Source: Theodoxus fluviatilis
Taxonomy: Eukaryota > Mollusca > Gastropoda > Cycloneritida > Neritidae
NCBI GenBank assembly: GCA_034096865.1
Contig: JAWQFJ010020171.1
Location: 12,501-76,500 of the forward strand
DNA: 64,000 bases
Direction of reading: 5' to 3'
Shown here: positions 2,493 to 63,580 of the stretch, piece by piece
Position numbering within the stretch: position 1 is the stretch's first letter
How the letters are laid out: each line of letters begins with the position of its first letter
Notes under the pieces: generated by a model
The model's database searches: none
Told to the model about the DNA's origin: nothing
The model's input: only the letters and a program-made list of their open reading frames with translations
Position numbers and translations under genes: made by a program

Positions 2493-7642
<5,150 letters not shown>

Positions 7643-9842: not shown

Positions 9843-10116
9843 CCCTCCACGTATATACCCCTAGACCAAGAGTAAAAAAGAAGAATTTACAAATTGAGAA
9901 AATTAAAGTGGAAGATTGTGGAAGGTCAGTCACAGATACTGATACACTTCAGACGGTATAAGTGTCCAATTCATCAGGCCTAATTAGAGATCGAGCAGAA
10001 AACTTGTACTCTACAATGCTGCTCTGCGCCCGAAATCATGCCAGGCATCCTGCCAAGCTGAGCTCTTCCCTAAACTTTCATGGACTCAAGCACGGCTGCA
10101 GCTTCTGGTGCCATAC
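9843..10116. other. sequence between LTR and last visible DNAI3 exon
   Basis: No exon is recognised. If DNAI3 continues, this is its intron beginning at the donor GTATGG (- strand, 10111-10116). Confidence 0.5.
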
Positions 10117-13100
10117 CTGAGGGTGGATGGGGTCTGTGAAGCTCCAGATGAGGATGAGAGAGGGGGTCATGATGATCCGGGCTGCATTGTCTACTCTGTC
10201 GTCAAAGGTCATTCGCTCTGCCACCGACACCGCCACCACTCCTGCAGCAAAAAAGAGAAAGCCATATAATCAGAGTGCCTTGAAATTACTGTCAAGTCCC
10301 AGATGTTCGGATTTGGTCAACTCTGCCTTGAGAGGCAGGCTACATTCCAGAGACAACTGTGGAGGATGACTGGGTTGTCTCCCCTTGTCCATCTGCCAAT
10401 CTTAAGAATTTTCCCCTATCGAGTCTCTCTTTTTTATAAATAGGCAGTTGCAACATGACTAAAACATGCATTAGTGAACATAATTGTATGCCCTTGCATG
10501 AGCAGAAGAGGATGGGTGACACTGTATGCAGAGTGATGGGATGGGATGGTCTCTGAGTTGGTGGGAGTGAGTTGTGGATATAGGGTAGGTGGGTGGGAGT
10601 GAGGTGGTAGGTTGTAAATACAAGGTAGTTGGGTGGGAGTGGGGTGGTTGTGGATTAAGTTAGATGGGTGAGAGTGAGTTGTGGATATAGGGTAGATGGG
10701 TGGGAGTGGAGTTGGGGACGGCACTGAAGTTACGACTGGTTGAGCACAGTGATTTCCTTTCCCACCTTTGAGTGTGTGGTGCCACTGTATGCAGGTAATG
10801 GTCTTGTCTTTGCTGAACTGCAAATCTGTGAAGGACTGGTACTCCTGTAGGATAAAAACAGAGACGTTTGGCAATTAATACAGCAACAAGGTGAAAGTTC
10901 TCAGCACCGAACAAAAATTGCTTTAGCAAAAATTTCTGCAAATGTGGAGAATACTTCTTCAGACTGTTTAAACATTCATCTGAAAGACATGGTATCTTCA
11001 TGCAGTGACACAGAACTTCATAGGAAGTTGTGCTGTGTGTGCTGCATTAAGATAACCATGTCTGCTGTGTATAAGTAATGGCCTGTGGCTGTTGTTATTA
11101 CTCTTGTGAGTTGTGGAACCCTGTAGAAGGTAGGTGCTGTCACAACCCCCTCAAAAATGGAGCTGCAGATATGTTTATAAATACACACAAGAAGGGCAAA
11201 GCCAATACGACTCACATGATTGACCTTGACCTTTATATGACATTGACCTTCAGGTGACCTTCAAGGTCAAGGTCAAATAACTAAACCTACCAATGACATC
11301 ATACACTAAGAAATGCTTTACACATTTTTCCTACCAAAATACATGTGACCTTGACCCAAGGTCAAGGTCATCCAAGGTCATGCAACACAAAGCTGTTAAT
11401 TCAAGACATAGGAAGCACAATGGTGCTTATTGGCACTTTCTACCATGAGATATGGTCACTTTTAGTGGTTCACTACCCCATTTTGGTCACATTTCATAAG
11501 GGTCAAAGTAACCTTAACCTTGATGATATGTGACCAAATATGTCTCATGATAAAAGTATAACATGTGCCCCACATAATTCTTAAGTTTGAAACAGTTATC
11601 TTCCATAGTTCAGGGTCAAGGTCACTTCAAAATATGTATACAATCCAACTTTGAAGAGCTCCTGTGACCTTGACCTTGAAGCAAGGTCAACCAAACTGGT
11701 ATCAAAAGATAGAGATTACTTTGCCCTATATACCATATATAGGTCAGGTATCCAATCTCAAAAACTTCAGAGAAAATTGAGAAAATGTGAAAAATGACTG
11801 TTTTTAGACAACATTTATGGGCCCTGCGACCTTGACCTTGAAGCAAGGACAAGTCACTATGTATGTTTTTTGAGGCCTTGTCATCATACACCATCATGCC
11901 ACATTTGGTATTGATAGACTTAATAGTCTCTGAGAAAAATCCAACTTTAAAGTTTTTGGACGCCCGGACGCCCGGACGCCCGGACGCCCGGACGCCCGAA
12001 CGCCCGGACCGACGAAACGGGTGAGTACATAGACTCACTTTTGCTTCGCATGTGAGTCAAAAATCAGAACAGTACTAGAGTAGAAATAATCAATTAAACA
12101 AGAAGGGCAAAGCCCATACGACTCACATGCTTGACCTTGACCTTTATATGACCTTGACCTTCAGGTTACCTTCAAGGTCAAGGTCAAACAACTAAACCTA
12201 CCAATGACATCATACACAAAGAAATGCTTTACACATTTTTCCTACCAAAATACATGTGACCTTGACCCAAGGTCAAGGTCATCCAAGGTCACGCAACACA
12301 AAGCTGTTAATTCAAGACATAGGAAGCACAATGGTGCTTATTGGCACTTTCTACCATGAGATATGGTCACTTTTAGTGGTTCACTACCCCATTTTGGTCA
12401 CATTTCATAAGGGTCAAAGTGACCTTGACCTTGATGATATGTGAACAAATGTGTCTCATGATGAAAGTATAACATGTGCCCCACATAATTATTAAGTTTG
12501 AAACAGTTATCTGCCATAGTTCAGGGTCAAGGTCACTTCAAAATATGTATACAATCCAACTTTGAAGAGCTCCTGTGACCTTGACCTTGAAGCAAGGTCA
12601 ACCAAACTGGTATCAATAGATAGGGCTTGCTTTGACCTATATACCACTTGTAGCTGAGGTCGCCATTCTCAATAACGTGGGAGAAAATTGGGAAAATGTG
12701 AAAAATGACTGTTTTTGAGACCACATTTATGGCTCCTGTGACCTTGACCTTGAAGCAAGGTCAAGTCTCTATGTATGTTTTTTGAGGCCTTGTCATCATA
12801 CACCATCATGCCACATTTGGTGTTGATAGACTTAATAGTCTCCGAGAAAAATCCAACGTTTAAGTTTTTAACGGACGGACGGACGGACGCCCGCCCGGAC
12901 GCCCGGACGGACGGACGACACGGCTCAGTACATAGACTCACTTTTGCTTCGCATGTGAGTCAAAAAGTTACATTATGATACATGGTAGAGATCAATAAAC
13001 ACAAGTCCATGTTTATGTAGTTTAAGAATAAACAATAACCAGAGCCCAAGCTCTAACAACAGGCTGGAGAACAACCACCTAAAAAACATATGGAAAAAAG

Positions 13101-16100
13101 GGCAGGGTTCACAGGTCACCTATAGGCCCAAAGGGATCCAGGGGTAATGCTCTGATAGAAGGTTTAGGGGGGCAAGGCCCCTCAACCCACATCAAGCCCT
13201 GCTTATGCAGGAAAGCACAGAGTCACTCAAGGCAAAACCTTGATTTGTTACACGATTTTTGTTGGCTCAGATTTTTTTTTCATTGGAAAATTTTCCCCCC
13301 ATCATATATCAGAAATATTTTCTCAAGAAATTTGTGGAATCTCGGATTGAGAGTTCTCCAGCCTGAAAAAAACCTGAGAGAAGTCCCATAACCCAAAAAT
13401 AAATACCGTCCCCCCCTCTGGAGTTTCAACTCTACTCTGGAACCTGGTCCAAGCTCTAAACTGGAACCTAAAAAATGGAAGAGGAAAATCCAGTTGTACC
13501 AAACTGGACACAAGTAATTAGATTCACAACTACAAACACAAAAACATAACATGGTAATTTTGAATGGTGTGAAGTCAAATAACTATCAAACACTGCACAT
13601 ATACTCGTCATGTTCAAGACACATTTTTGTTGTTGCAACTTTTATGACCAAAGCCCACACCAGTCTGACATTCCATGTTTCTACGGGAAGCTGCATTGGT
13701 TTGACATGTATTTTGCTGTAATCTAAAAATGCCACTGAAGGCCAAAGAGAAGATGCTGACCTTCAGGTGGTTGTCTGTCTTGGTGCCAAACGTGCTGCTG
13801 GGATCTCCAAGGTGGAGCCAGTCAATGTGGAAGATGTTCATGATTTCATTCTGCTGTAGTGCCAGCTCAAACCTGTTGGTGACAAGTGAACATCAAATTA
13901 GCACTGATCGAATTACACAGGAAAATAGGGGCAAATTTCCCAGGCATACTGATGGCCCTCTACAATGTGATCTTTGCCATGCCTATTAAAAGACAGTCAA
14001 GAACCCTACAAATCTGACATTAAAGCAATACATTTTTCAGAAAAAATGCAATTATGTACATAACTGAGTATCCATTATACAGTGCTGTAAAAAGTCTCAT
14101 TCATTTCAAGCTACCTATTCCAAACACTTGTTTCTCTGTTCTATTATGGCAGTTAGTAATTCAGATATGATGTTAGCACTGGCCCTGAGCACCACTTCAC
14201 ACTGAAGCTACAGATCAAACTGAAGAAAACACTGCTCCTCATCATACTGCATGTATTGGCACCCCATCATTCACATACACCTGGTTCAGTCTCATTGGCA
14301 CAGAGGAGAAAGTGAAGGAACATTCATTTCTCCTTAGAAGGGATTGCAACTTCAAGCAGAACACACCACAAGAGGACAGAGGTGGCCGTGAGAAAAATAC
14401 TGACCTTGGAGTGACTGCAACAACAAAGTTATGGAGATCAGGTGAGTTGGCATGCTGCTCCTTCTCCCTCTCAGAGAACTCCCTGGGGTAGTACTGGGTG
14501 TTGTTGTTGCGGGGATAGCGCCAGTTGGTCTGGGCACCCCTGTCTGTGAAGTGTGGAATGGCCTGCAAGGAGAGAACACTTGATTGAGACTGAAGACGAG
14601 TCAGTCAGACGTCATCAATGGTTACTGATCCTTCACAAATCTTTATTCAAGGCAGACCTGTGTCTACTAGTGTTACAATTAGTAATATTAACAAGAAGGG
14701 CAAAGCCCATACAACTCACATGCTTGAACTTGACCTTTACATGACACTGACCTTCAGGTGACCTTCAAGGTCAAGGTCAAACAACTAAACATAGCAATGA
14801 CATCATGCGCTAAGAACTGCTTTAAACATTTTTCCTACCAAAATACACGTGACCTTGACCCCACCCAAGGTCAAGGTCATCCAAGGTCATTCAACACAAA
14901 GCTGTTAATTCAAGACATAGGAAGCACAATGGTGCCTATTGGCACTTTCTACCATGAGATATGGTCACTTTTAGTAGTTTACTACCCCATTTTGGTCACA
15001 TTTCATAAGGGTCAAAGGGTCAAAGTGACCTTGACCTAAATGATATGTGACCAAATGTGTCTCATGATGAAAGTATAACATGCCCCACATAATTATGTTT
15101 GAAACAGTTATCTTCCATAATTCAGGGTCAAGGTCACTTCTAATATGTATACAATCCAAAATTGAAGAGCTCCTGTGACCTTGACCTTGAAGCAAGGTCA
15201 ACCAAACTGGTATCAAAAGATAGGGCTTACTTTGCCCTATATACCATATATAGGTCATTTATCCAATCTCAAAAACTTCAGAGAAAATTGAGAAAATGTG
15301 AAAAATGGCTGTTTTTTAGACAATATTTATGGCCCCTGGGACCTTGACCTTGAAGCAAGGTCAAGTCACTATGTATGTTTTTTGAGGCCTTGTCATCATA
15401 CACCATCGTGCCACATTTGGTATTGATAGACTTAATAGTCTCCGAGAAAAATCCAACGTTAAAGTTTTCGGACGCCCGGACGCCCGGACACCCGGACGCC
15501 TGGACGGACGAAACGGGTGAGTACATAGACTCACTTTTGCTTCGCATGTGAGTAAAAAACTCTTAAGGTCCTGTAAGTCATACACGTGTTCCATTCCCCA
15601 GTCCTGCAAGGATTATGCGATTTGTAGAAAAAAATCAGTCAAGTAAGAGCCACTTGGGGTGGGCAGCTATGGGCAGTACAGGATTGAGCAGGGTGGATGG
15701 TAATGGGTGGTACAAGATCTTAAGAGTTAAGACATCTATTCTTCCACAATCAGTCTCATCTTCAGCACTGCTGATGTCCATACTGAAATCAATAGACTAT
15801 CATGCCATCCTTTCCACTGTCCTACAAGAAGAGTCAGATAGACGCACAAGATTATGCCAGATTTTCACAAGTGGATGTTACTCAGCTCTCAGTAATCATT
15901 CCCACTCTCTTACACCTCACACACTACACTAGAGACCGATACTATGCAGTCCAGCAGTGATATATTCAACATAAAGCACTGCGGTAAAATCACTTCCATC
16001 ATGAGGTACCCCAAATCTCACCTCCTGAATCAACAGATATTCGGATGACCCAATTTTGGTTTCACAGTCTTGAACGGATTTTTATCATGCACGTTGACCT

Positions 16101-16875
16101 AACTAATCAAAACCAGCCCACCCCAAGCTTGACAGTTCTCAAGATTGTACTTCACTTGTATTTGTGGTGAGAGTACATTGTGTTTGTACACATCAACTGA
16201 CAATGAATTTTCTGGCACCTGGCATAGATGCAAGGTTGAAGAATGAAGAAATTAGCTTCTAGAATTGATTCCCAGTGACAGACTTAGAAAGATTTATCAC
16301 TGCTACTTTTTTGTTGAATAGCACACAGTGACCAAGAGGTAATGCCTGAACATCCTTGCATAGCCAGACAAATAAACTTTTAATTAGAGTTCCTACATGC
16401 ATATAACCATAAAATTTCATGAGGTAAACAGAAGTTGAGGTTAAAGTAACATGGCCTAAAAAAATGGTGTGGTGGTGGTTTGGGGGGTGGGGTGGCAGTT
16501 TGGGGGGTGTGGTGGTGGTTTGCGGGGTGGGGTGGCAGTTTGGGGGGTGGGGTGGCAGTTTGGAGGGTGGGGTGGGGCCAGTAGGTAGACCTGACTTCTT
16601 TAAATCTATTTTATGAGGCCAGATTGAGACTGCAAACACACACACATGAGTGTGTGTGTTGTGTGTGTATATGTGTGTGTATGTCTGTGTGGATGTGTTT
16701 GTATGCGTGTGTGCATGCATGCATGTGTGTGCATGTATGTGTGTGTGCGCATGTGTGTTTTAAGAAGTGTCATGTATAGAGGAGATTCATCTGAACATAA
16801 ATTTCTCCTTTACGGAAAATTTTTACTCAAATAGTGCTCATGCAGATGATGGGACAAGCATGCAGTTTGTTGCAT

Positions 16876-16934
<59 letters not shown>

Positions 16935-17283
16935 CTCTCTCTCTACTTTGTTGTGTGTATTGTTCCATGATCAAAAAGAAAGTTTCGGGTTGGCAGGATC
17001 AATTGGGTTACTATAACCACTATTTTTTTTTTTGGTCTGCCTTAATGCCACTTAAATGTCTGTTCATTCTGCGGTGAGTGAGATGCAATGCCAGTATAGG
17101 AACCTGCGTGGCCTTGTCCAGTTCTATCCTATTCAGGGAGAAACTTGGGTCCTCAAACGAGGTGCACTCGATGAAGCCATCCTTGGCGTCCGCCACATTT
17201 CTGTCCTTGAACTTGTACGGGGCACCAAACTCCCGGCGCTTGCGCTTGCAGGAGACTTTGATCTGAAGTGAACTGATGCTTGT

Positions 17284-17378
<95 letters not shown>

Positions 17379-19664
17379 TATGTCAGATTAATCCACAGGG
17401 GAGATATAGAGAGGTATCATCATGACACCTAAGAACAAGAAGGGCAAAGCCCATACGACTCACATGCTTGACCTTGACCTTTACATGACCTTGACCTTCA
17501 GGTGACCTTCAAGGTCAAACAACTAAACCTACCAATGACATCATACACTAAGAACTGCTTTACACATTTTTCCTACCAAAATACATGCGACCTTGACCCA
17601 AGGTCAAGGTCATCCAAGGTCATGCAACACAAAGCTGTTAATTCAAGACATAGGAAGCACAATGGTGCTTATTGGCACTTTCTACCATGAGATATGGTCA
17701 CTTTTAGTGGTTCACTACCCCATTTTGGTCACATTTCATAAGGGTCAAAGTGACCTTGACCTTGATGATATGTGACCAAATGTGTCTCATGATGAAAGTA
17801 TAACATGTGCCCCACATAATTATTAAGTTTGAAACAGTTATCTGCCATAGTTCAGGGTCAAGGTCACTTCAAAATATGTATACGATCCAACTTTGAAGAG
17901 CTCCTGTGACCTTGACCTTGAAGCAAGGTCAACCAAACTGGTATCAATAAATAGGGCTTGCTTTGACCTATATACCACTTGTAGCTGAGGTCGCCATTCT
18001 CAATAACGTGGGAGAAAATTGGGAAAATGTGAAAAATGACTGTTTTTGAGACAACATTTATGGCTCCTGTGACCTTGACCTTGAAGCAAGGTCAAGTCAC
18101 TATGTATGTTTTTTGAGGCCTTGTCATCATTCACCATCATGCCACATTTGGTGTTGATAGACTTAATAGTCTCCGAGAAAAATTCAATGTTTAAGTTTTT
18201 TACGGACGCCCGGACGGACGGACGCCCGGACGGACGCCCGGACGGACGGACGACACGGCTCAGTACATAGACTCACTTTTGCTTCGCATGTGAGTCAAAA
18301 ATGAGGGTGACTGAGTTGGACGAAGACAGGGCAAGCTGCAACAACACTTAATGGTAAATGCATTATTATCTTAGATATTGTATTTACATTCAAGAAAATG
18401 TAATTTCATACACAGCAAAACAAATTACACTGTTATGGACACCTCTGTCAAACAAGCAGTGATTTACACATTGATATATTCTCAATTGATTTTCTGACTA
18501 TAAAATAGTGTAGATTTTGCTGTGGTTATGATATCGTTACACATCCCACCAGTTTTCTCAGTTTTACATGTGGCTAGAATTACACAGGATGCCTGACAGT
18601 TTGCTAAGAAAAACTTTATGAACAGTATACAAATCACATTGCCCCATGCATTGGACTTGAACAAACCACATGCACTTTCAACATTCGCAATTCTCATCAG
18701 CCACTTTCATTTCAAACTCTGTTTTGAGGGAGCTACATGTGTGCCAGAAGGAAAATTACACGCATCCATGGTGTAACTGAGTAAAAGCAGGGAGAGAATT
18801 TTCAAACAGACAATGATTAAATCTCCCTCGTGGAATTAGGAAAAATGAGCTGCTTAATTAAACCAAGACTCACATATAGCCTATTCTGCAGTGATATTTC
18901 CATCAGCAGCTGGATTGCTGTGGTCTTTGCATTCAACAAATATGTTGTAACCAAGTTTAAATTAAGCAAGATATCAAACACACCAAAGACACCCCAAACG
19001 AAAAAAAAGAGTTTATAAAGCATAAATATTGTACTTCTGTCCCTTTGACATACACCTATTGATTTGCTTTGTAAATGATCTGTCAGGGGGTCTGATAATT
19101 TCATATTTAAAAAAATTGTCCAATCATATAAAACATTCAGACACTTGGTTTCCTCATCCCTGGAGTTGTACAGGCAAGTGGCCATGCATGCACGCAAGGC
19201 AGGCTGAGGAACTGGCACCCACCTTTTGCCTGTTCTCAATGACAGACTCCTCCTCTATCTCCTTCTCACTGCCAAAAGTGACCCACTCTTTGGGCTCGGG
19301 AGGAATGTACTTGAAGATGATGATCTCCTCCTCCTCCTCCTCTGGTTGGCCCTCCTGGTCCTGCTCCGGGGGCTGTGCAAAGAAGTCAACAAATGGTCAG
19401 CACTGTTCACAGGACCACAGCACTTCTTCCTGTATTCATGAGGCTGAAAGAGTTGTATAAGAAAGTGTTCATGCCTCCTGAGTTTACTACTTGACAACTA
19501 TATCCAAGAGTCAAAAATACAATGACTGACATATATCCGTATAAGATCAACTTAAATTCAGATTGACAAAAAGTGAACTGTGGACATCACAACAGAACTT
19601 ACCGTGAGGTTGAGTTGGAAGAAAATGAAGTGCGTGTGTGTGTGTGTGTGTGTGCGTGTGTGTG

Positions 19665-19739
<75 letters not shown>

Positions 19740-19962
19740 ATACAAGCAAAACTGAATCATTAAGTTATGTATGACTGGGTTTCCTATTGAGAGGAAGTGA
19801 AAAGGGCATCACATAGAGAAGAAAGAATGAAACTGTAAGAACCCCCCTGGCAGGGCATGAGACACAGATCAGCAGACCAGTCATGTTTCAAACTGTTTTT
19901 CTATTTCTTCCAGTAAACAAAAAATGCTTCTGGAAGCTAAGCATCAAAATCATGTTCTAAGC

Positions 19963-20060
<98 letters not shown>

Positions 20061-20975
20061 TGAACTCTTTACTATAATAATTCTTCCATTTTTGATCCTC
20101 CCCAGTGGATCTTTTGACTTTGTATGTGACTGCAGGAAAGATGATGATGATGGCCAACACATTTTGTGCATGCGGGAGTATGATCTTGGTACTTTACAGG
20201 TGGGAGGATGTGTGGACTCATGGGGGTTCTAGACGGAGGCCTATGTGTGCATGAGAGTGTGTGTGGGTGCGTATGAGTACTGCTATATGAGTGCAGGCGA
20301 ACACAAACTGTGACTTATGCTATCTATGGCACTTATGAATGGTGGTACTCCTGTGAGAGGGGAGACGGGTGAAAGTGGGTCTCAGTGAGAGTGAGACCTG
20401 ATATGCCAGTATGGATGTGTGAATGTGTATGGGTATGAGTGTATGTGAAGCTGACCTCTTATGGAGAGGAGGCCTACTGGCATGACTCCCCGTCCACACG
20501 TTCCCGCTTCCCTCTCCCTCGCCCCCCTTCTTCCCTCCCCCCCCCTCCCCCTCCTCCCCAACCTCCCCCCATCAACCCCTTCCCCCCCCCCCCCCCCCCT
20601 TTGCCTATCACCTTGTTTTTTACTCATCTCCCATGCCTCGTGTTTTTTTGCTTGAGCTGTATTCACTCCTCAGTTATGTTTCCTCACCCGTGCCCTTGCG
20701 TTGTCTCGGTCAGATAAATACAACTTGCTCTTGTGATTGACCCTCAGGGCTTTGTACATGTACAATAGCAGACAGAATTCTGATCCAGCAAACCTGAATC
20801 ACCAATCACAGTCAAACAGTATGACAAGCCACGCCCACGTATGTCGTCATGTGTGACGTAGAAACTTAGGGTTAGATATGTGGTGAGTTGTCAAACCCTT
20901 CAGTATGCTCCTGAGGAAGGCATTCAGCTGAAAATTTGAAGCTGAGTAAAGGCTTGTTTGTTTGCTCGTTCGATC

Positions 20976-21024
<49 letters not shown>

Positions 21025-24000
21025 TAAAAAAAATCTGAAATGGTTTAAGATTTAGACAAATTCATTGAGCCCTGATATTAAATTATAAAAATTAAAGGGG
21101 AAAACAATTAAGCTTTGTGACTTGAGAAAGACAGCCCATTAAAGCAAACTTCTGAGAAAAAAAGTGCCCGAAGCATGCTTTCCATTTTCCATTTGTGAAA
21201 GAATTCCCGTTTTGATGAGAATGAAGAAAAATCTTTTTCATTCTTGGTGCCGCGTGCTTTCAATAAATGGCAGTACAGCAAAAAAAATGTCATTCATTCA
21301 TTAGCATTTTAACAAGAAAAGATAATCTCAATCTGGAAAAAACTTACAATTAAGTTATAAAAACAGACCTAGCTCATTCATGTTAAGTACCTGCACAAGC
21401 TATGTAATCAATTTTCTTTCAGCTGATCGATCTCTTCATGCTGAGAAATGTTTCTGCACAAGCATTCCTCGCTGCTGTATTAATTAATTCTCAGACATCT
21501 CCATCATTCATGTACTGGGAAGCAAGTGATGTTCGATAGTGAAGCTCATCAAGCAGGCATCAGTTTTACCGTGTGTTGGAACGAATAGTGTCTGTGTGAT
21601 ATTGTGAAGCAGTGCTACTATCATCATGGCAACTCAGTACTGTGGCCCCCTGGCATGCAGAGGCCCCTGATGCTGCCAGCATAGCGCACTGTCAAAGCAA
21701 GTGATCAATGCAGCAGGAATTCTGGGCTACATACTTACTGTGGAGTTGTTCAGCTCATTGAAATTCTTGCGTGAGGGGTGTTTAAGATAGGAGTTGACAG
21801 ATCACTCATGACAAGAATAAACAATATTATCTAAATTCAACAAACACATGTATCCAATTAATTCCACATTCTGATGAAGAACTGTTTGCAGTAAGATGTA
21901 TACAGAGATGATTCTTTGATCATACATTTTACCTAAAACAAATACATACAGGTTTTTTGTGCATCTGTAAATGTTTAAAGACTGGATTTTCCTCTACATC
22001 TTCCATTCTTATTTCAACAACTGTTACATTGGAAAATACAAAACAGATTAATGAATCAATATATCACAGCCTTTACATGCAAATCTTATGAAGCAGTCTT
22101 CAATATTTGAGTACGTATGTATAAACAATGTAAAGACAATTGCTCAATACTTACATTCAAGATATTTTCCTTGGCTTCAACAGTGAGGGCAATGTAGAAA
22201 TTCTGCCCATACTTGTAGTCAGGGTCATAAACAATCAGGATTTCGTCTTCAGGGAAGTCCTAAAAATAGACAAGATCCTATGTGATGCTGTGGGGTGATG
22301 ACAAGGATAACAAGACATAACAAACACAGAAGAGATGGAGCCTGAAAGTTTCCATTGATAGTATCAGATTGTTATCAAAATAATAAAAATAATAATAAAA
22401 GGAAGTTTATAGCACTTTGTTTTCATACAGTGACTTCTACATACATGTATTGTTCCTCTGAACAGGGATGAACAAGAAGGGCAAAGCCCATACGACTCAC
22501 ATGCTTGACCTTGACCTTTATATGACCTTGACCTTCAGGTGACCTTCAAGGTCAAGGTCAAACAACTGAACCTACCAATGACATCATACACTAAGAAATG
22601 CTTTACACATTTTTCCTACCAAAACACATGTGGCCTTGACCCATGGTCAAGGTCATCCAAGGTCATGCAACACAAAGCTGTTAATTCAAGACATAGGAAG
22701 CACAATGGTGCTTATTGGCACTTTCTACCATGAGATACGGTCACTTTTAGTGGTTCACTACCCCATTTTGGTCACATTTCATAAGGGTCAAAGTGACCTT
22801 GACCTTGATGATATGTGACCAAATGTGTCTCATGATGAAAGTATAACATGTGCCCCACATAATTATTAAGTTTGAAACAGTTATCTTCCAAAGTTCAGGG
22901 TCAAGGTCACTTCAAAATATGTATACAATCCAACTTTGAAGAGCTCCTGTGACCTTGACCTTGGAGCAAGGTCAACCAAACTGGTATCAAAAGATAGTGA
23001 TTACTTTGCCCTATATACCATACATAGGTGAGGTATCCAATCTCAAAAACTTCAGAGAAAATAGAGAAAATGTGAAAAATGGCTGTTTTTTAGACAACAT
23101 TTATGGCCCCTGCGACCTTGACCTTGAAGCAAGGTCAAGTCACTATGTATGTTTTTTGAGGCCTTGTCATCATACACCATCATGCCAAATTGGGTGTTGA
23201 TAGACTTAATAGTTTCCAAGAAAAATTCAACGTTAAAGTTTTAAACGGACGCCCGGACGCCCAGACGCCCGGACGGACGAAACGGGTGAGTACATAGACT
23301 CACTTTTGCTTCGCATGTGAGTCAAAAAACACAAAACCAAAGACAAAACCACTCAAAAAATAATAACCACCATCACCCAAAAAAAACAAACGGAAAAACA
23401 CACACACCAAAATAACAACAAGAAGGGCAAAGCCCATGCAACTCACATGCTTGACCTTGACCTTCAGGTGACCTTCAAGGTCAAGGTCAAACAACTAAAC
23501 CTACCAATGACATCATACACAAAGAAATGCTTTACACATTTTTCCTACCAAAATACATGTGACCTTGACCCAAGGTCAAGGTCATCCAAGGTCATGCAAC
23601 ACAAAGCTGTTAATTCAAGACATAGGAAGCACAATGGTGCTTATTGGCACTTTCTACCATGAGATATAGTCACTTTTAGTGGTTCACTACCCCATTTTGG
23701 TCACATTTCATAAGGGTCAAAGTGACCTTGACCTTGATGATATGTGACCAAATGTGTCTCATGATGAAAGTATAACATGTGCCCCATATAATTATTAAGT
23801 TTGAAACAGTTATCTGCCATAGTTCAGGGTCAAGGTCACTTCAAAATATGTATACAATCCAACTTTGAAGAGCTCCTGTGACCTTGAACTTGAAGCAAGG
23901 TCAACCAAACTGGTATCAAAAGATAGGGCTTGCTTTGACCTATATACCACTTGTAGCTAAGGTCGCCATTCTCAATAACGTGAGAGAAAATTGGGAAAAT

Positions 24001-27000
24001 GTGAAAAATGACTGTTTTTGAGACGACATTTATGGCTCCTGTGACCTTGACCTTGAAGCAAGGTCAAGTCACTATGTATGTTTTTTGAGGCCTTGTCATC
24101 ATACACCATCATGCCACATTTGGTGTTGATAGACTTAATAGTGTCCGAGAAAAATCCAACGTTTAAGTTTTTTACGCCCGGACGCCCGGACGCCCGGACG
24201 GACGGACGAAACGGCTCAGTACATAGACTCACTTTTGCTTCGCATGTGAGTCAACAAAAACCAACAAGGAAGAGAGCTACCAAACTTGCAGGCCAAAGAA
24301 CAACTCACAATAATCTGCTGCTTGAAAGGGTGGAAGTCACACACAGCAGCCCTGTTCTTCAAGTCCTCCAAGATTTCCTCCTTGGTGATGATCTTGATGA
24401 GGTTTTCAGACGTGACGTCCTCATCAGTGCGGCAGTTGAACAACTCTTGTGTCTTGGAGGCAAGGAAAATTGGAAACAGCCCCTCGGCTAGCCCTGCAAC
24501 AACCACGAGCCAGGAAACATGGTCAGACCAGGACTATCAAATCTCTTTGACATACTTATCCTGGAGTTGTATCCTAGAGCAAGATGCTTGAATTGCATTG
24601 CTTCTCCTCATCCTGGAGTAAAACCCTGTATCTGAGAGTGCAGTGATGGTAATTTGTGGTGCAGTTTACCCTAGTATGCAGCAGTGTGCCAGCATTGGGT
24701 TGGAATCCTCCCCAGGAAGTGAAGTTTGAGCTGGAACATGACTGTGTGGGTTTACTGTGTTTGTTGTCATGTACCAGTTAAGGACTGGTCAAATGGTCCA
24801 TTGATCAGGGAGTAAAGAGGAAAGCAGTTTGAGACATACACCTGGGTGAAAAGTCACTATATAAAACGACACCTTTCCCTTTCCCTATGGCTTCAATAAA
24901 TACCCAGCTGATAATGTTTAGATAATTTAAATCTAGTGTATCTGTATGATCATATTGATGTCTGGTGTAGATGTGCAACAATAATTCAGATATGCTGAGT
25001 GATTCATTCAACAGGTAGTGGTGTACATTTGCTCACAGCACTAATTTTCAGTAATTTTCACTTTGCCCAAATACTCAGGAACTGAACTTGGGAACTTTTA
25101 ATCTTGGAGGCAGCCATAACCCACCCAGTATATGGTGAATAGTGATGTGTTACTGTACAGGACCCACCTCTGGCTGCCTAGTTACTAGGCAAGAATGCAA
25201 CTGACTTGGCTGTGATTCTCTACATTTATATGTCAATTTTTGTTGCTGCTGCTATTAAAAAAACCTAACACTATCATCTACCTTCAGATCATTCATTGAG
25301 TTGGCATCAATCCAATAATAGAATACAATGGTGCATTATGCAAATCACAATTGGTAATATGCATGCATGTGAATTAAGCACTGCCACAATGCTTTTGGCA
25401 GCATGATGAAAAGAAGAAATGGCTGCAGATTTGGATATTCTACTTCATTTCTCTTACAGAAAGCTGCGACAAGAGCAGATAACTTACGTTCTTCCTCACG
25501 CTTTTCAGGCTCCTCGGGTTTGGGTTCTTCCACTGGTACCTCCTTCTTCTTCTCAGACCCTGAAGTAACAGCACAAATAGTGTCTTGTCACGCCATGAGC
25601 ATATTTATCATGATAATGGCGCAGTAAAAAATGAAAATACATACATACATACATACATATCAAATCACTTTATTGCAGAAAATGTACAAAGATCATACAT
25701 GGCTGCTAAAATCACAGCTATGTGAAGGAACACTAGTCCAACTGAAGCACCCGTCTGGACAGATTCGTCTTTTCAACGATGATTTAGTAAAGCTTCACAA
25801 GTCAGCCCATACAAAAGTTCATCTATCTAAGTTCCCTTTCCATTAAGAAATTTCTTCTGGCCCAAGCTCTCCTCGACCCTATCATGACTGAAAGACTGAG
25901 GTACTTAGCTAGATTCCTGCTTAAGCGTTTTGTTAGGCCCAACAACATGAGGCCTTTGACAAATCTGCGATGTACAGTACCAAGGGACCCAATCACCAGG
26001 ACTACTATTTTCATGGAAAAGCCAGCATCATTAAGCGAAAGACAGAGAGGCATGTACTTTTCAAATTTATGTTGGTAGCATCTTTTGATGAATGTGTCAA
26101 ACGGGCAGACCATTTTGATGATGAAGGCTGTTGAATTAAGATGATCTAAGATACACATATCAAAACACTTTATTGCAGGAAATTGATTACATTCATCAAG
26201 AGCAATATCAAAGGAATGCAAGCGTTACCACCTTCCACTTCGATGGCCTCATGGATAACTGAGCATGTTAGAGCTTTATGACGTTATTCTATTATACAAC
26301 ATTCGCCATGTATGATTGCATTTGGCCCTCTCTATATGTAACTATATCTCTTAAATTCTCTTCCACTCTCTCTGTATTTCTCTGATACATACATACATAC
26401 ATTACATACACACATACACACATACACACATACATACATACATACATACATACATACATACATACATACATACATACATACATACAAATAAGTTGAACAG
26501 GTGTAACTTGATCGGCAAACTGTTATTCTCTACTGTTTGTGATCTTATTCTTCAGTCATAGAAATCCTTGCCTGGATTTCACAAAGTACACAAAGATAAC
26601 AATTGGAAGTATAGATGTAATTGTCATCATGTAAAATTCTGGATATATATGGAGAATGTCATATAAACAGTGACATGAATGCTGGCATGTTTTTTAAGGA
26701 AAAAATTAATTCCTTATAAAGGACTGAAAACAACATTTCATAATAGTTAGTCCGGTTCCTTTGAAATCCAGAGAATTAACACAGTGTGTACAGATGATCA
26801 TAGTCAGATATACTCAAGGCTTCCCTTTTCAAACAGAACCAGAGGATGGTGGACTTTCAGAATCTATTTCAGCAGTTCAAGCAAGAGGACTCCAAACAGC
26901 TAATGAGGCTAGTGAAGGGTTCCTTGATTACCGTGACCCATTGGACTCCAAACAGCTAATGAGGCTAGTGAAGGGTTCCTTGATTACCGTGACCCATTGG

Positions 27001-27333: not shown

Positions 27334-30300
27334 TGCGTGTGCGTGAGTGCGTGTGTGAAGAAAAAGTCATCTGTATGTTCATCTGAACATAAACAAAAAT
27401 GTCTTGTGATGAAAATGCTTTTTTTTTACTTAAACAGTGGATTCCCTAAGTGCTCATAAGGCTGGGAAGATGGAACAGCATACAGTTCATTGTTCACCTT
27501 CAATTCAATTTTTTTTCTTTTCTTTTTGTGCATGATCAAAAAAAGAAAAAGTTCAGGCAGAAAAAAGGGTCACAGTCAGGTAGGTTACTGTAACCACAGC
27601 TCTGTTTTTTCAATCTCCTTATTCTCTCACCTTTCTTGCCCTTCTTGCCTCCCTTGTCTGCAGGCGACTTCTTCTCTCCCTTGCCACTGCCCGCGACGCT
27701 CTTCTTCTTCTTGCCACTGCCCGGGGGGCTGGTACCTGCTGACCCTGGGCTCGCAGGGGAGGCGGTGTCCTGCAAGGGCAAATACAGAGTGCCTTAGTGA
27801 GAAAGCAGGATGCTGTGCAAGTACATGTATAGAGTGCCTTAGTGAGAAGGAAGGATGCTGGGCAAGTACAGAGCACCTTAGTGAGAAGGCAGGATGCTCA
27901 GCAAGTACAGAGTGCCTTAGTGAGAAGGAAGGATGCTGGGCAAGTACAGAGCGCCTTAGTGAGAAGGAAGGATGCTGTGCAAGTACAGAGTGCCTTAGTG
28001 AGAAGGCAAGATGCTGGGCAAGTATAGAGTGCCTTAGTGAGAAGGAAGGATGCTGGGCAAGTATAGAGTGCCTTAGTGAGAAGGAAGGATGCTGGGCAAG
28101 TACAGAGCGCCTTAGTGAGAAGGCAGGATGCTGGGCAAGTACAGAGTGCCTTAGTGAGAAGGCAGGATGCTGTGCAAGTACAGAGTGCCTTAGTGAGAAG
28201 GCAGGATGCTGTGCAAGTACAGAGTGCCTTAGTGAGAAGGCAGGATGCTGTGCAAGTATAGAGTGCCTTAGTGAGAAGGCAGGATGCTGTGCAAGTACAG
28301 AGTGCCTTAGTGAGAAGGCAGGATGCTGTGCAAGTACAGAGTGCCTTAGTGAGAAGGCAGGATGCTGGGCAAGTATAGAGTGCCTTAGTGAGAAGGAAGG
28401 ATGCTGTGCAAGTACAGAGTGCCTTAGTGAGAAGGAAGGATGCTGTGCAAGTACAGAGTGCCTTAGTGAGAAGGCAAGATGCTGGGCAAGTATAGAGTGC
28501 CTTAGTGAGAAGGAAGGATGCTGGGCAAGTATAGAGTGCCTTAGTGAGAAGGCAGGATGCTGTGCAAGTATAGAGTGCCTTAGTGAGAAGGCAGGATGCT
28601 GTGCAAGTACAGAGTGCCTTAGTGAGAAGGCAGGATGCTGGATAAGTATGGAGTGCCTTAGTGAGAAGGCAGGATGCTGGGCAAGTATAGAGTGCCTTAG
28701 TGAGAAAGCAGGATGCTGGATAAGTATGGAGTGCCTTAGTGAGAAGGCAGGATGCTGTGCAAGTATAGAGTGCCTTAGTGAGAAGGCAGGATGCTGTGCA
28801 AGTACAGAGTGCCTTAGTGAGAAGGCAAGATGCTGGGCAAGTATAGAGTGCCTTAGTGAGAAGGAAGGATGCTGGGCAAGTATAGAGTGCCTTAGTGAGA
28901 AGGCAGGATGCTGTGCAAGTACAGAGTGCCTTAGTGAGAAGGCAGGATGCTGTGCAAGTGTGTCGTGTTGCTGTTGTTGTTGTGTGCGTTTAGGCACAAG
29001 AACAACTAAGAGGTGTTAGGTTTGTCGAGCGCGCTTGCGACTCGCTTTCACCAAGGGGAGAGCACTCTTGTTTATTTGTAATGTAGCTCTACAGTTACAA
29101 GCTCACTGTCTACATCTCTCTTCTTTTAAAGTATAAAATGTACATACTATTGGGAGAGTGTGGAAAAGACCTTTGATTAAGCACATTAAATGCACTTTTG
29201 ACTAGCAGGATATTTTGACTGGACTTTCTTACAAATAGCATGCATTGACATATTAAAGTAATACTGATATATACATGAACGAGTTTTTGAGGTAGTTCTC
29301 TACTTTGGTTGAGAGTCCTCGGGAGGTGTTCTCAGTTTTGTTAGTGGAAGGTCTGTGGTGGTCGGTGGTAAGGTTGGAGTCAAGTACGACGCAGGGGCGA
29401 AGTCGAGTTACTTTCCCACACTTTATTGGCCGTTGGTACAAGCTCTTAGTAAGATGAACCTCTTGACCGGGTGGTGAATTGGTCTCTCTGGCTGTGTGCC
29501 GTCTCCCCCTTATCAAGCGGATGCACGGACCTCACAGGAGCCAGGGGATGGATTGTTCCACAGATCCTAACCCATGGCTCCCAAGTCGTGCTTGTATTTG
29601 GAAGAAAACAGGGATTACTTAATTGAACTCGCTTTGAAATTACTTCTTACATATGTTGCCTCATTCAGCATAACACAGTCTATTGAATGAATCATATGCC
29701 GTTGCAAGTGGTTGTCTTACTTGAGAGGAAACATTAGATTTATACTCAAAATGTTACAATTCAGATGCCAGAGTGGGAGGACGGCGCACTAGCCAGGGGT
29801 CACGCTAATGCAAGGAGTGATTGACAGGGCAGCTGCACTAACAATCAGACCACAGTAGAGGGGGGGTCACAGAGCGGTCAGCTGGTCAGCTTGCCTTACA
29901 GAAAGGATGGGGGAGGGGGGTTGGAGAGAGGTCTGACACACAGGATTGGGGGTGGGAAGAGACAGAAGAAGGGATATGTCAATAGAGGATGAACACAGCA
30001 GATGTACACTACACTTTGTGATAGGTGCACCTTATGACATGGACACAGTAGATGTACGATACACTCGGTGATAGGTGCACCTCATCACAGGTCTACAGGG
30101 CATGCAGAATTAGTACACAGTCTGGTCATTCTTGAGTGGGTCACTGATCACATGTCTTTTACACTGTCCACTCTTCTCCTCTGAACTTGGAATTGGGCTT
30201 GTGCACTCTTGCACTTCTTCTGGGAGGGGATGCATGGGAAGTTGGTGAGCTGTGAGGCATCTCTCTTGGTGCACTGGTATCGGTGGAGGTTGGAGTTGGT

Positions 30301-31399
30301 GGTGGCTGGGCAGTTGTGGTGTTCCTTGGCTGAATGGGTGGTGGTGGTGGTGGTACTTCATCACCTTCATCATGGTTGTGCTGCTCAGGAGTAGGTCGCA
30401 GGTGTCTTCGATTGCGCTCTATCTGCTGACCTTCTGACACAACGATGTAACTCCGAGGTCTGTCAGCTGATTTGAGAATGTGGCCAATCCGGTCAAAGCC
30501 GTGAGGGGTTTCAATCCTGACAGTCTGGCCAGGTGTGAGGGGCTTGAGGGTCTTTGAGCCCTTGTCGTACTGCTTCTTCTGCTTGGATCGCTGTGCTGAT
30601 AGCTTCTCCGTGACGTTGGTGATGATTGAGGGTTGGAGGAGCTTGTGTGAAATGTGAAGAGTTGTTCGAGTACGTCTGGACATGAGACGCTGTGCAGAGG
30701 AGCCGAGAGAGCCTCTTGGCACATTTCTGGCATGAAGAAGTGCGAGGGAGAAGTCAGTGTGATCTCTGTGGCATTTTTCCAGGAGGTGTTTTGCACTGCG
30801 AACAGCTCTTTCAGCCAGGCCGTTGGATTGAGGATATAGTTGGGACTGCTGGTCACGTGGGAGAACTGCCATTCTAATGCAAATTGTGCAAATTCATGGG
30901 ACTTGAACTGCATGGCGTTGGGCGTGGGTTCATATTCCACTTCTGACACCATGTGTCGTGTTGCTGTTGTTGTTGTGTGCGTTTAGGCACAAGAACAACT
31001 AAGAGGTGTTAGGTTTGTCGAGCGCGCTTGCGACTCGCTTTCACCAAGGGGAGAGCACTCTTGTTTATTTGTAATGTAGCTCTACAGTTACAAGCTCACT
31101 GTCTACAGCAAGTACAGAGTGCCTTAGTGAGAAGGCAAGATGCTGGGCAAGTATAGAGTGCCTTAGTGAGAAGGAAGGATGCTGGGCAAGTATAGAGTGC
31201 CTTAGTGAGAAGGCAGGATGCTGTGCAAGTATAGAGTGCCTTAGTGAGAAGGCAGGATGCTGTGCAAGTACAGAGTGCCTTAGTGAGAAGGCAGGATGCT
31301 GGCAAGTGGGTGTTTATTCTGCTACCAAAGAGGCAGCCACTACTACTACTTCTGTTACTAATACTAATGCAACTGTTACTACTACTACTACTAATACTT

Positions 31400-50640: not shown

Positions 50641-51950
50641 ATCTTTGGTGGCTTGAATGGAAGCTGCTCATGCCATCATTTCAAGTGACAACTTTTTAAC
50701 ATTTGGCTATTGGAATGGAAGCTGTAACTGGCATAATATCAAGAGACAATTATCTCATCTTTGGCCATTAGAATGGAAGCTGTTACTGCCATGATATAAA
50801 GTGACAATTCTCTCATCTTTGGCCATTAGAATGGAAGCTGTTACTGCCATGATATAAAGTGACAATTCTCTCATCTTTGGCCATTAGAATGGAAGCTGTA
50901 ACTGGCATATCAAGTGACAATTCTCTCATCTTTGGCCAATTGTAATTATTATCCTATGTTATGTGTGATTGTTGTGTGCATGTTTGTATTTGCCATAATG
51001 TTTGTATTAGGGTGTGCATTCTTTTCTTTATGGGTGTGAATGTGTGTGTGTGCGCGCCTTGAGTCGCCTAAGTGGTGAGATATGTGCGCATGATAAATTA
51101 TCGTATTATTATTGACTCACATGCGAAGCAAAAGTGAGTCTATGTACTCACCTGTTTCGTCCGTCCGGGCGTCTGGGCGTCCGAAAACTTTAACGTTGGA
51201 TTTTTCTCGGAGACTATTAAGTCTATCAATACCCAATGTGGCATGATGGTGTATGATGACAAGGCCTCAAAAAACATACATAGTGACTTATCCTTGCTTC
51301 AAGGTCAACGTCGCAGGGGCCATAAATGTTGTCTAAAAAACAGTCATTTTTCACATTTTCTCAATTTTCTCTGAAGTTTTTGAGATTGGATACCTGACCT
51401 ATATATGGTATTTAGGGCAAAGTAAGCCCTATCTTTTGATACCAGTTTGGTTGACCTTGCTTCAAGGTCAAGGTCACAGGAGCTCTTCAAAGTTGGATTG
51501 TATACATATTTTGAAGTGACCTTGACCCTGAACTTTGGAAGATAACTGTTTCAAACTTAATAATTATGTGGGGCACATGTTATACCTTCATCATGAGACA
51601 CATTTGGTCACATATCATCAAGGTTAAGGTCACTTTGACCCTTATGAAATGTGACCAAAATGGGGTAGTGAACCACTAAAAGAGACCATATCTCATGGTA
51701 GAAAGTGCCAATAATCACCATTGTGCTTCCTATGTCTTGAATTAACAGCTTTGTGTTGCATGACCTTGGATGACCTTAACCTTGGGTCAAGGTCACATGT
51801 ATTTTGGTAGGGAAAAAGTGTAAAGCATTTCTTAGTGTATGATGTCATTGGTAGGTTTAGTTGTTTGACCTTGACCTTGAAGGTCATCTGAAGGTCAAGG
51901 TCATGTAAAGGTCAAGGTCAAGCATGTGAGTCGTATGGGCTTTGCCCTTC

Positions 51951-51983
<33 letters not shown>

Positions 51984-63020: not shown

Positions 63021-63580
63021 TAATATGTGCAGCCTGTGATGCCAACAAAGAACAACATTCCGTTGAATGCTCGAATTTCCACACTGTCAGTGTCATAGTC
63101 CCATTCACCTCCACGCTGATGTGCATACATATTTGTTTGTTGCACGATCAAGTCAATGGCATCTTGAGGGAACAACAAGCTGAAAAAGTCAACAATGTCT
63201 GCATCAGGGGGCAGTGTCTGCTTTGGTCCATGTTGTCCATGGAATGGAGGATAGTCCTTTGGAATGGCCGTGTCGAAAGTACGGTCGCCCGTCTCAGCAA
63301 CACGTTGTGGTGTTGATAGCTGCCTACCTCTTGATCGAAATCCAGCACCTCTCCCTCGCAAAGTGGCACGACCATGCCCCCTTCCTCTTGATGTGTTCGG
63401 TAGATCTGTGACAGCTTCTTCCTCCTCACTGTCGGAGCTGCTCTCAACCGCAGTATCCAAAATGATGTCGCCTTCGGATGCGTCTTCGACTTCAGTTTCA
63501 TCGTCGCTAATGTCGCAGTTTAGCTGTAAATATATCAAAAGTATACCTTCGTCGTCCGTGGTAGAGCGTCAGGAAGCCAT
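63021..63580 (-). pseudogene. piggyBac transposase N-terminal fragment
   Basis: The ATG complement at 63578-63580 opens MAS followed directly by a TGA, then an open frame to about 63021. An acidic stretch (DISDDETEVEDASEGD) and an Arg/Gly run (RGRGAGFRSRGRQ) are followed by DADIVDFFSLLFPQDAIDLI and QQTNMYA. The last is the conserved start of the piggyBac transposase domain. The frame ends shortly after (MLFFVGITG) with no catalytic DDD core. Confidence 0.75.

Follow-up and report, generated by a model that had tools for sequence, protein, structure and literature searches.

Non-autonomous Helentrons (HINEs) built of the same parts, in the same order, as the element described below have been reported from Drosophila, a mite and the Pacific oyster (PMC4067079 and PMC7492417). 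The element in question is a repeat present in seven copies, c1 to c7, within a 64,000-nucleotide stretch of the genome of the snail Theodoxus fluviatilis (assembly GCA_034096865.1, contig JAWQFJ010020171.1, positions 12,501 to 76,500 of the forward strand; the whole of this stretch is referred to as the window). Six copies lie in introns of DNAI3, and the recurrence of a motif-bearing repeat there is confirmed as a real observation. The repeat is very probably a high-copy HINE whose motifs decay neutrally after insertion, and its family is a new member of the known HINE/Helentron kind; the unexpected, testable part of the finding is a local orientation lock.

The snail element resembles the bivalve Cg_HINE/Pearl in having a 5' subterminal inverted repeat (subTIR), a complementary inverted repeat, a GTCY/GTCC microsatellite, a 3' subTIR and a 3' palindrome, as well as in the T-rich target, probably in having central repeats of a similar size (~140-180 bp) and the absence of a reported target duplication in the excerpted text of PMC7492417. 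The likeness is one of description. In the snail element the putative central repeats have diverged except for an AGGTCA box; integration in both orientations is stated for Cg_HINE/Pearl, and no orientation lock was found in the excerpts of that paper. DINE-1 of Drosophila and HINE-Mo of the mite likewise share with the snail element the subTIRs, the palindrome, the preference for TT, the microsatellite and the lack of target modification; they differ in their hosts, and some have known autonomous partners, whereas none was found for the snail element (PMC4067079, excerpts).

Read in its own sense, the snail element consists of a T run, the 5' subTIR GACTCACATG, its inverted partner AAAGTGAGTC, a GTCC-type microsatellite (GGGCGTCC/GTCC) on the left flank, a central region, the 3' subTIR CATGTGAGTC, the palindrome GGGCTTTGCCC at the 3' end and TTCTTGT, the words that mark its two ends being TTGACTCACATG and TTCTTGT. 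This anatomy is present in all seven window copies, in which the subTIRs, of the ~10-13 bp expected of HINEs at both the 5' and the 3' end, carry at most two mismatches. Among 39 further copies fetched from the same genome as the closest to c5, both ends could be paired in 38; the remaining one (L040) is a tandem that was mis-paired by our script. None of the four open frames tested for coding capacity, taken from c1, c2, c5 and c7, gave a Pfam match. Within the central region, clusters of AGGTCA are spaced 163 and 156 bases apart, and a like spacing is seen along the genome list of places; the simplest reading is that the clusters may represent the box of an old tandem array of ~160-bp units, a size typical of HINE central repeats, whose likeness to one another survives only in the box. 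An earlier note on this DNA, made from the letters alone, had offered an internal repeat as its alternative account of the motifs, and this is the better supported of its two readings.

Insertion sites were compared in 44 flank pairs, 7 from window copies and 37 from fetched copies (of the 39, L040 and L021, a copy at a contig end, were omitted). Each of the five bases upstream of GACTC is T in 39 to 44 of these pairs; at the 3' end GT comes next in all 44, with an additional T in 39. Words shared between the two flanks at the bare ends numbered 2, compared with 2.3 for shuffled pairs, in keeping with the T-rich or TT target without target duplication that is known from HINEs. Copy L026 is inserted within another copy at CACATTT^TCTC, a site that the consensus carries uninterrupted, and at most a single T is duplicated there. 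In the tandem L040, TT links the 3' end of one copy with the 5' part of the next, a junction that could stem from a rolling-circle concatemer or from a copy having inserted at the end of another. At positions 6589-8178 of L059 a full copy is followed directly by a same-orientation copy without its first 98 bases. It is because of the ends, the microsatellite, the 3' palindrome and the T^T insertion that we assign the repeat to the HINEs. A canonical Helitron (5' TC, 3' CTRR, A/T insertion) was rejected, since the element reads TTGACTC...CTTCTTGT within T runs, and a cut-and-paste miniature inverted-repeat transposable element was rejected on account of the subterminal position of the inverted repeats and the self-insertion of L026.

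The window contains 72 exact occurrences of TCAAGGTCA/TGACCTTGA on either strand, compared with 1.07 expected and with none of 100 shuffles reaching that number, and every one of the 72 falls within the seven copies (9, 13, 9, 11, 10, 11 and 9 in c1 to c7, respectively). Each copy also holds 16 to 20 AGGTCA hexamers and 4-7 occurrences of AGGTCAAGGTCA. The earlier note had described a repeat of ~860 bp in seven copies, six of them in the same orientation in DNAI3 introns and the seventh inverted, at a motif density unlikely to arise by chance; alignment and counting bear this out, with copies of 833-870 bp at 92-98% pairwise identity, and its figure of about eight motifs per copy is an undercount. 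The aligned copies span 11189-12058 (c1), 12100-12961 (c2), 14693-15554 (c3), 17437-18296 (c4), 22474-23323 (c5), 23420-24252 (c6) and 51114-51952 (c7). Its picture of a repeat that had colonised the introns of one ciliary gene holds within the window and is too narrow beyond it, as the family is genome-wide. Across the 965-Mb genome there are 12,858 exact matches to the 27-base 5' end (6422 forward, 6436 reverse; 0 for the reversed-word control). The 42-base end of subfamily-B type is present 2715 + 2705 times on the two strands, and the 15-mer TCAAGGTCAAGGTCA 56,100 times, compared with 22 for its control. In a 200-kb sample (including 36,773 N), made up of twenty 10-kb pieces from large contigs that likewise contain a close copy, the family accounts for 8,916 bases, for 122 of the 125 TCAAGGTCA words and for all 31 copies of the 15-mer; its share of 5.5% of known bases is not an estimate for the genome, as the 15-mer is about three times as frequent in the sample as genome-wide. 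From 31 15-mers per 8,916 family bases, we arrive at a rough figure of ~19,000 copy equivalents genome-wide.

For contigs C1 to C89, the orientation of exact 5' ends was scored at 150 listed places. Pairs of copies less than 10 kb apart share the same orientation in 63 of 63 cases, and agreement falls off with distance, from 55/60 at 10-20 kb and 122/137 at 20-50 kb to 57/91 at 50-100 kb and 8/19 above 100 kb. On contig C7, all 16 listed copies agree across 134 kb; when this contig is left out, the corresponding values are 47/47, 34/39, 71/86, 29/63 and 4/15. Among the first 100 listed places, orientation is the same in 69 of 74 adjacent pairs, compared with a permutation mean of 43.2 and a maximum of 59 in 20,000 permutations; taken by themselves, the 51 places typed from the second list gave small numbers that weaken with distance, 6/6 below 10 kb, 4/8 at 10-20 kb and 5/11 at 20-50 kb. 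The same orientation of close neighbours is a property of the whole family. A bias in T runs was rejected as its cause, as the excess of runs of four or more T over runs of four or more A in four regions (268 vs 225) is too small for 63/63.

Where a gene strand can be read, the copies point along it. Copies c1 to c6 are hosted by the minus-strand gene DNAI3, recognised by five translated stretches that match solved DNAI3/WDR63 chains in order; the copies are located between these coding stretches, and element sense is gene direction in all six. The same holds for 4/4 copies in the gene for a plasma-membrane calcium ATPase (PMCA), for 5/5 in CNOT3 and for the single copy at a locus where an EGF_CA-bearing frame lies 2.5 kb from it, giving 16 gene-sense copies of 16 at four loci of four.

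Since orientations agree over distances of a gene-like scale and the copies read in gene sense, transcription may be what chooses the strand, and we regard this step as the leading explanation of the lock, tentative and unproven as it is. The element would presumably be moved by a Rep/helicase/endonuclease supplied in trans, and this machinery would join the element strand to the strand exposed by transcription, leaving intronic copies gene-sense; Helentrons are thought to move through a single-stranded intermediate and to prefer poly-T (PMC4067079, excerpts). The AGGTCA clusters would be kept, if at all, for the benefit of the element and not of the host, for example by allowing inverted copies to pair in the single-stranded intermediate. 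The broader proposal, in which insertion is strand-locked with transcription, thousands of copies record gene by gene the strand transcribed in the germ line, and the AGGTCA boxes serve this cycle at the level of the element and are common to independent HINE families, is slightly more doubtful than the transcription step by itself. With at least 12,858 exact 5' ends and full agreement of close pairs among the listed places, the question of whether transcription, replication or selection sets orientation becomes testable by ordinary annotation.

Several points weigh against this account as a whole. An autonomous partner sharing the ends of the element was not identified; the genome has 18 Helitron_like_N loci, their ends unread (on contigs C6145, C306, C15793, C10001, C13754, C2402 and others), and these, several of which contain open frames of 1,400 to 2,268 residues, are candidates for that partner. 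Shared flank words are slightly in excess at five of six boundary choices (19 vs 16.2, 11 vs 9.3, 4 vs 1.4, 4 vs 1.3 and 6 vs 2.7), the largest proportional excess being 4 vs 1.3, and some copies may conceivably carry a short target duplication. The bodies between the motif clusters hardly align with one another (one of ten pairs at p 0.008 and two of ten at p 0.03-0.04, uncorrected and from simple shuffles). Some neighbouring copies are 98% alike, namely three pairs in L077 and one in L059. The gene-sense rule rests on four loci, and 4/4 loci taken alone is weak (p 0.06, one-sided). Copies in L057, L063, L077 and L007-L013, as well as c7, have no readable gene strand; neither inspection by eye of the open frames in L007-L013 nor scans of a single frame in L007, another in L011 and three in L077 revealed a host gene strand that could be read. 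Finally, orientation was scored in one family, and the lock may be general to intronic repeats of this genome.

IS608 and ISDra2 belong to the IS200/IS605 family. In these bacterial elements, transposition is single-stranded and orientation is set by replication, which makes them comparable with the snail element in process, through a strand-asymmetric host event (PMC5371812, excerpts). They provide the precedent for a rival to transcription in which insertion takes place into the lagging-strand template, so that orientation follows the direction of the replication fork and is only correlated with the gene strand. The uniform orientation over 134 kb of contig C7 would suit such a process; outside C7, however, the 29 of 63 pairs agreeing at 50-100 kb point to a scale more gene-like than replicon-like, and all four readable loci are gene-sense. 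We consider replication a possible but rather unlikely cause.

Similarly uncertain, and in our view also on the unlikely side, is the proposal that insertion is random with respect to strand and that selection then purges antisense intronic copies through premature polyadenylation, splicing or antisense pairing. The balance of the two strands across the genome (6422 vs 6436) is in line with this, as is a single acceptor-like site on the antisense strand of the consensus with none on the sense strand. Against it, neither strand of the consensus contains AATAAA or ATTAAA, and removal would have to be near-complete to leave no discordant pair among the 63 listed below 10 kb.

The TCAAGGTCA word is presumably a nuclear receptor motif of ERR, NR5A or NR6A1 type, and the earlier note had raised the possibility that the repeat spreads receptor-binding sites, to be checked by motif decay. 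We compared 61 copies, some of them partial (7 window copies, 38 of those fetched as closest to c5, and 16 from the sampled pieces and L077; the tandem L040 was dropped). Outside CpG, private changes (singletons) at TCAAGGTCA sites number 26, compared with 29.6 expected from base composition, and variants common to at least three copies number 4, compared with 8.5. With CpG included, singletons per site are 0.414 inside the motif and 0.373 outside, and shared variants 0.051 inside vs 0.114 outside (shift fraction 0.042). The proportion of differing cells is 0.014 at nonamer sites vs 0.026 elsewhere (shift fraction 0.039); hexamer sites show no divergence difference from other sites in the 61 copies, and hexamers are retained in 0.866 of cells vs 0.887 for other 6-mers (45 copies). 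The seven window copies by themselves show no clear difference between motif and non-motif sites (shift fractions 0.44-0.66; variable fraction 0.121 inside, shift mean 0.134), while in 23 copies from the window and the sampled pieces motif sites diverged less than others in all six comparisons (ratios of 0.47-0.74 with shift fractions of 0.027-0.27), the strongest being 0.0135 vs 0.0285 with a shift fraction of 0.027. The overall divergence of the nonamer thus leans toward the receptor reading, and the private changes and hexamer retention do not support it; the shortage of private changes at motif sites that a receptor array under host selection should display is not seen. Because the deficit is confined to shared variants and private changes are near expectation, host selection on the motif is not supported: the motif gathers changes like other sites after insertion, with a possible modest constraint on the element before insertion. 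When dense receptor-like words are met in a transposon, private changes should therefore be separated from shared ones before host regulation is inferred.

That clusters of TCAAGGTCA and DR0 type would be bound by a nuclear receptor and supply host genes with regulatory input accordingly appears improbable to us, notwithstanding the exact motifs and AGGTCAAGGTCA words in every copy, the concentration of TCAAGGTCA in the family and the lower overall variation at nonamer sites in the 23- and 61-copy sets. In addition to the decay results, the openly licensed literature yielded no paper joining receptor and transposon, and a search of it for the motif turned up only apparently unrelated papers.

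The boxes may instead matter to the element itself, as the HINE reading would have it. The predicted single-stranded DNA fold of the central region (-124.5 kcal/mol vs -78.8 for shuffles, z -8.2) depends largely on opposed motifs, as modelled by bodies without motifs (z -2.7), scrambled motif sites (-89.8) and hexamers turned one way (-94.1); the whole of copy c2 gave z -7.1 (20 shuffles). In a genome bin of a Bathymodiolus symbiont, a Helentron-like element (L003, 4900-5380) has two units 158 bp apart that carry TGACCTTGACCTTTGACC or a one-base variant. It shares with the snail element a palindromic 5' subTIR, an inverted 3' end and the regularly recurring box; it differs in its termini and is alignable only around the box. 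The box may have been retained through selection on the element, or its presence in both may reflect common descent or convergence. The DNA is animal-looking and is probably a contamination of the bin by the mussel host. One search of viral contigs for relatives gave none and another only L004 and L005, which we read as phage coding sequence matched by chance; of the two matches examined in bacterial genomes, L001 was read as coding sequence and L003 was the useful one.

The weakest of the rival explanations, in which a founder copy was duplicated locally to give each same-orientation cluster, is very improbable. The 98% pairs of L077 and L059 and the head-to-tail pair L040 would suit it. Against it, flanks differ among copies, subfamilies A and B alternate along DNAI3, and in 23 copies identity within loci is on average no higher than between them (94.9% vs 94.7%; permutation p 0.33), an indication of separate insertions.

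Table 1. HINE copies, parts of copy c5 and DNAI3 coding stretches, in window positions
Feature	Position	Strand	Remarks
HINE copy c1	11187..12060	-	Subfamily A; DNAI3 intron; based on ends and alignment, motif counts
HINE copy c2	12098..12963	-	Subfamily B; c1 ~40 bp away
HINE copy c3	14691..15556	-	Subfamily A
HINE copy c4	17435..18298	-	Subfamily B
HINE copy c5	22472..23325	-	Subfamily A; query of genome search
HINE copy c6	23418..24254	-	Subfamily B; 17-bp deletion within one motif cluster
HINE copy c7	51112..51954	+	Subfamily A; (TAA)n tract adjoins; inverted relative to c1-c6
5' subTIR GACTCACATG of c5	23314..23323	-	T run precedes
Complementary inverted repeat AAAGTGAGTC of c5	23297..23306	-	7 bp downstream of 5' subTIR
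GTCC/GGGCGTCC microsatellite segment of c5	23243..23281 (approximate ends)	-	Length varies among copies
Central region of c5, AGGTCA clusters	22504..23242 (approximate ends)	-	Clusters recur at 156-163 bp
3' subTIR CATGTGAGTC of c5	22494..22503	-	
3' palindrome GGGCTTTGCCC of c5	22479..22489	-	4-bp stem; TTCTTGT followed by T comes next
DNAI3 coding stretch	24318..24479	-	Residues 39-92 of solved chain
DNAI3 coding stretch	22152..22259	-	Residues 96-131
DNAI3 coding stretch	17101..17274	-	Residues 177-234
DNAI3 coding stretch	13758..13871	-	Residues 287-324
DNAI3 coding stretch	10111..10242	-	Residues 350-393

Other features were noted in the window. An 84-bp unit with an acceptor-like and an exon-like stretch is present in three copies at 98% (7328-7582) and looks like a recently triplicated exon. 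A Cu2_monooxygen (PF01082) match on the plus strand at 2447-2677 belongs to a neighbouring copper monooxygenase gene, and a DDE_Tnp_1_7 match on the minus strand at 63023-63568 is a transposase fragment, which we take to be of the piggyBac type. Two arrays of a nearly identical 39-bp tandem unit (27776-28959 and 31108-31307) lie ~2 kb apart.

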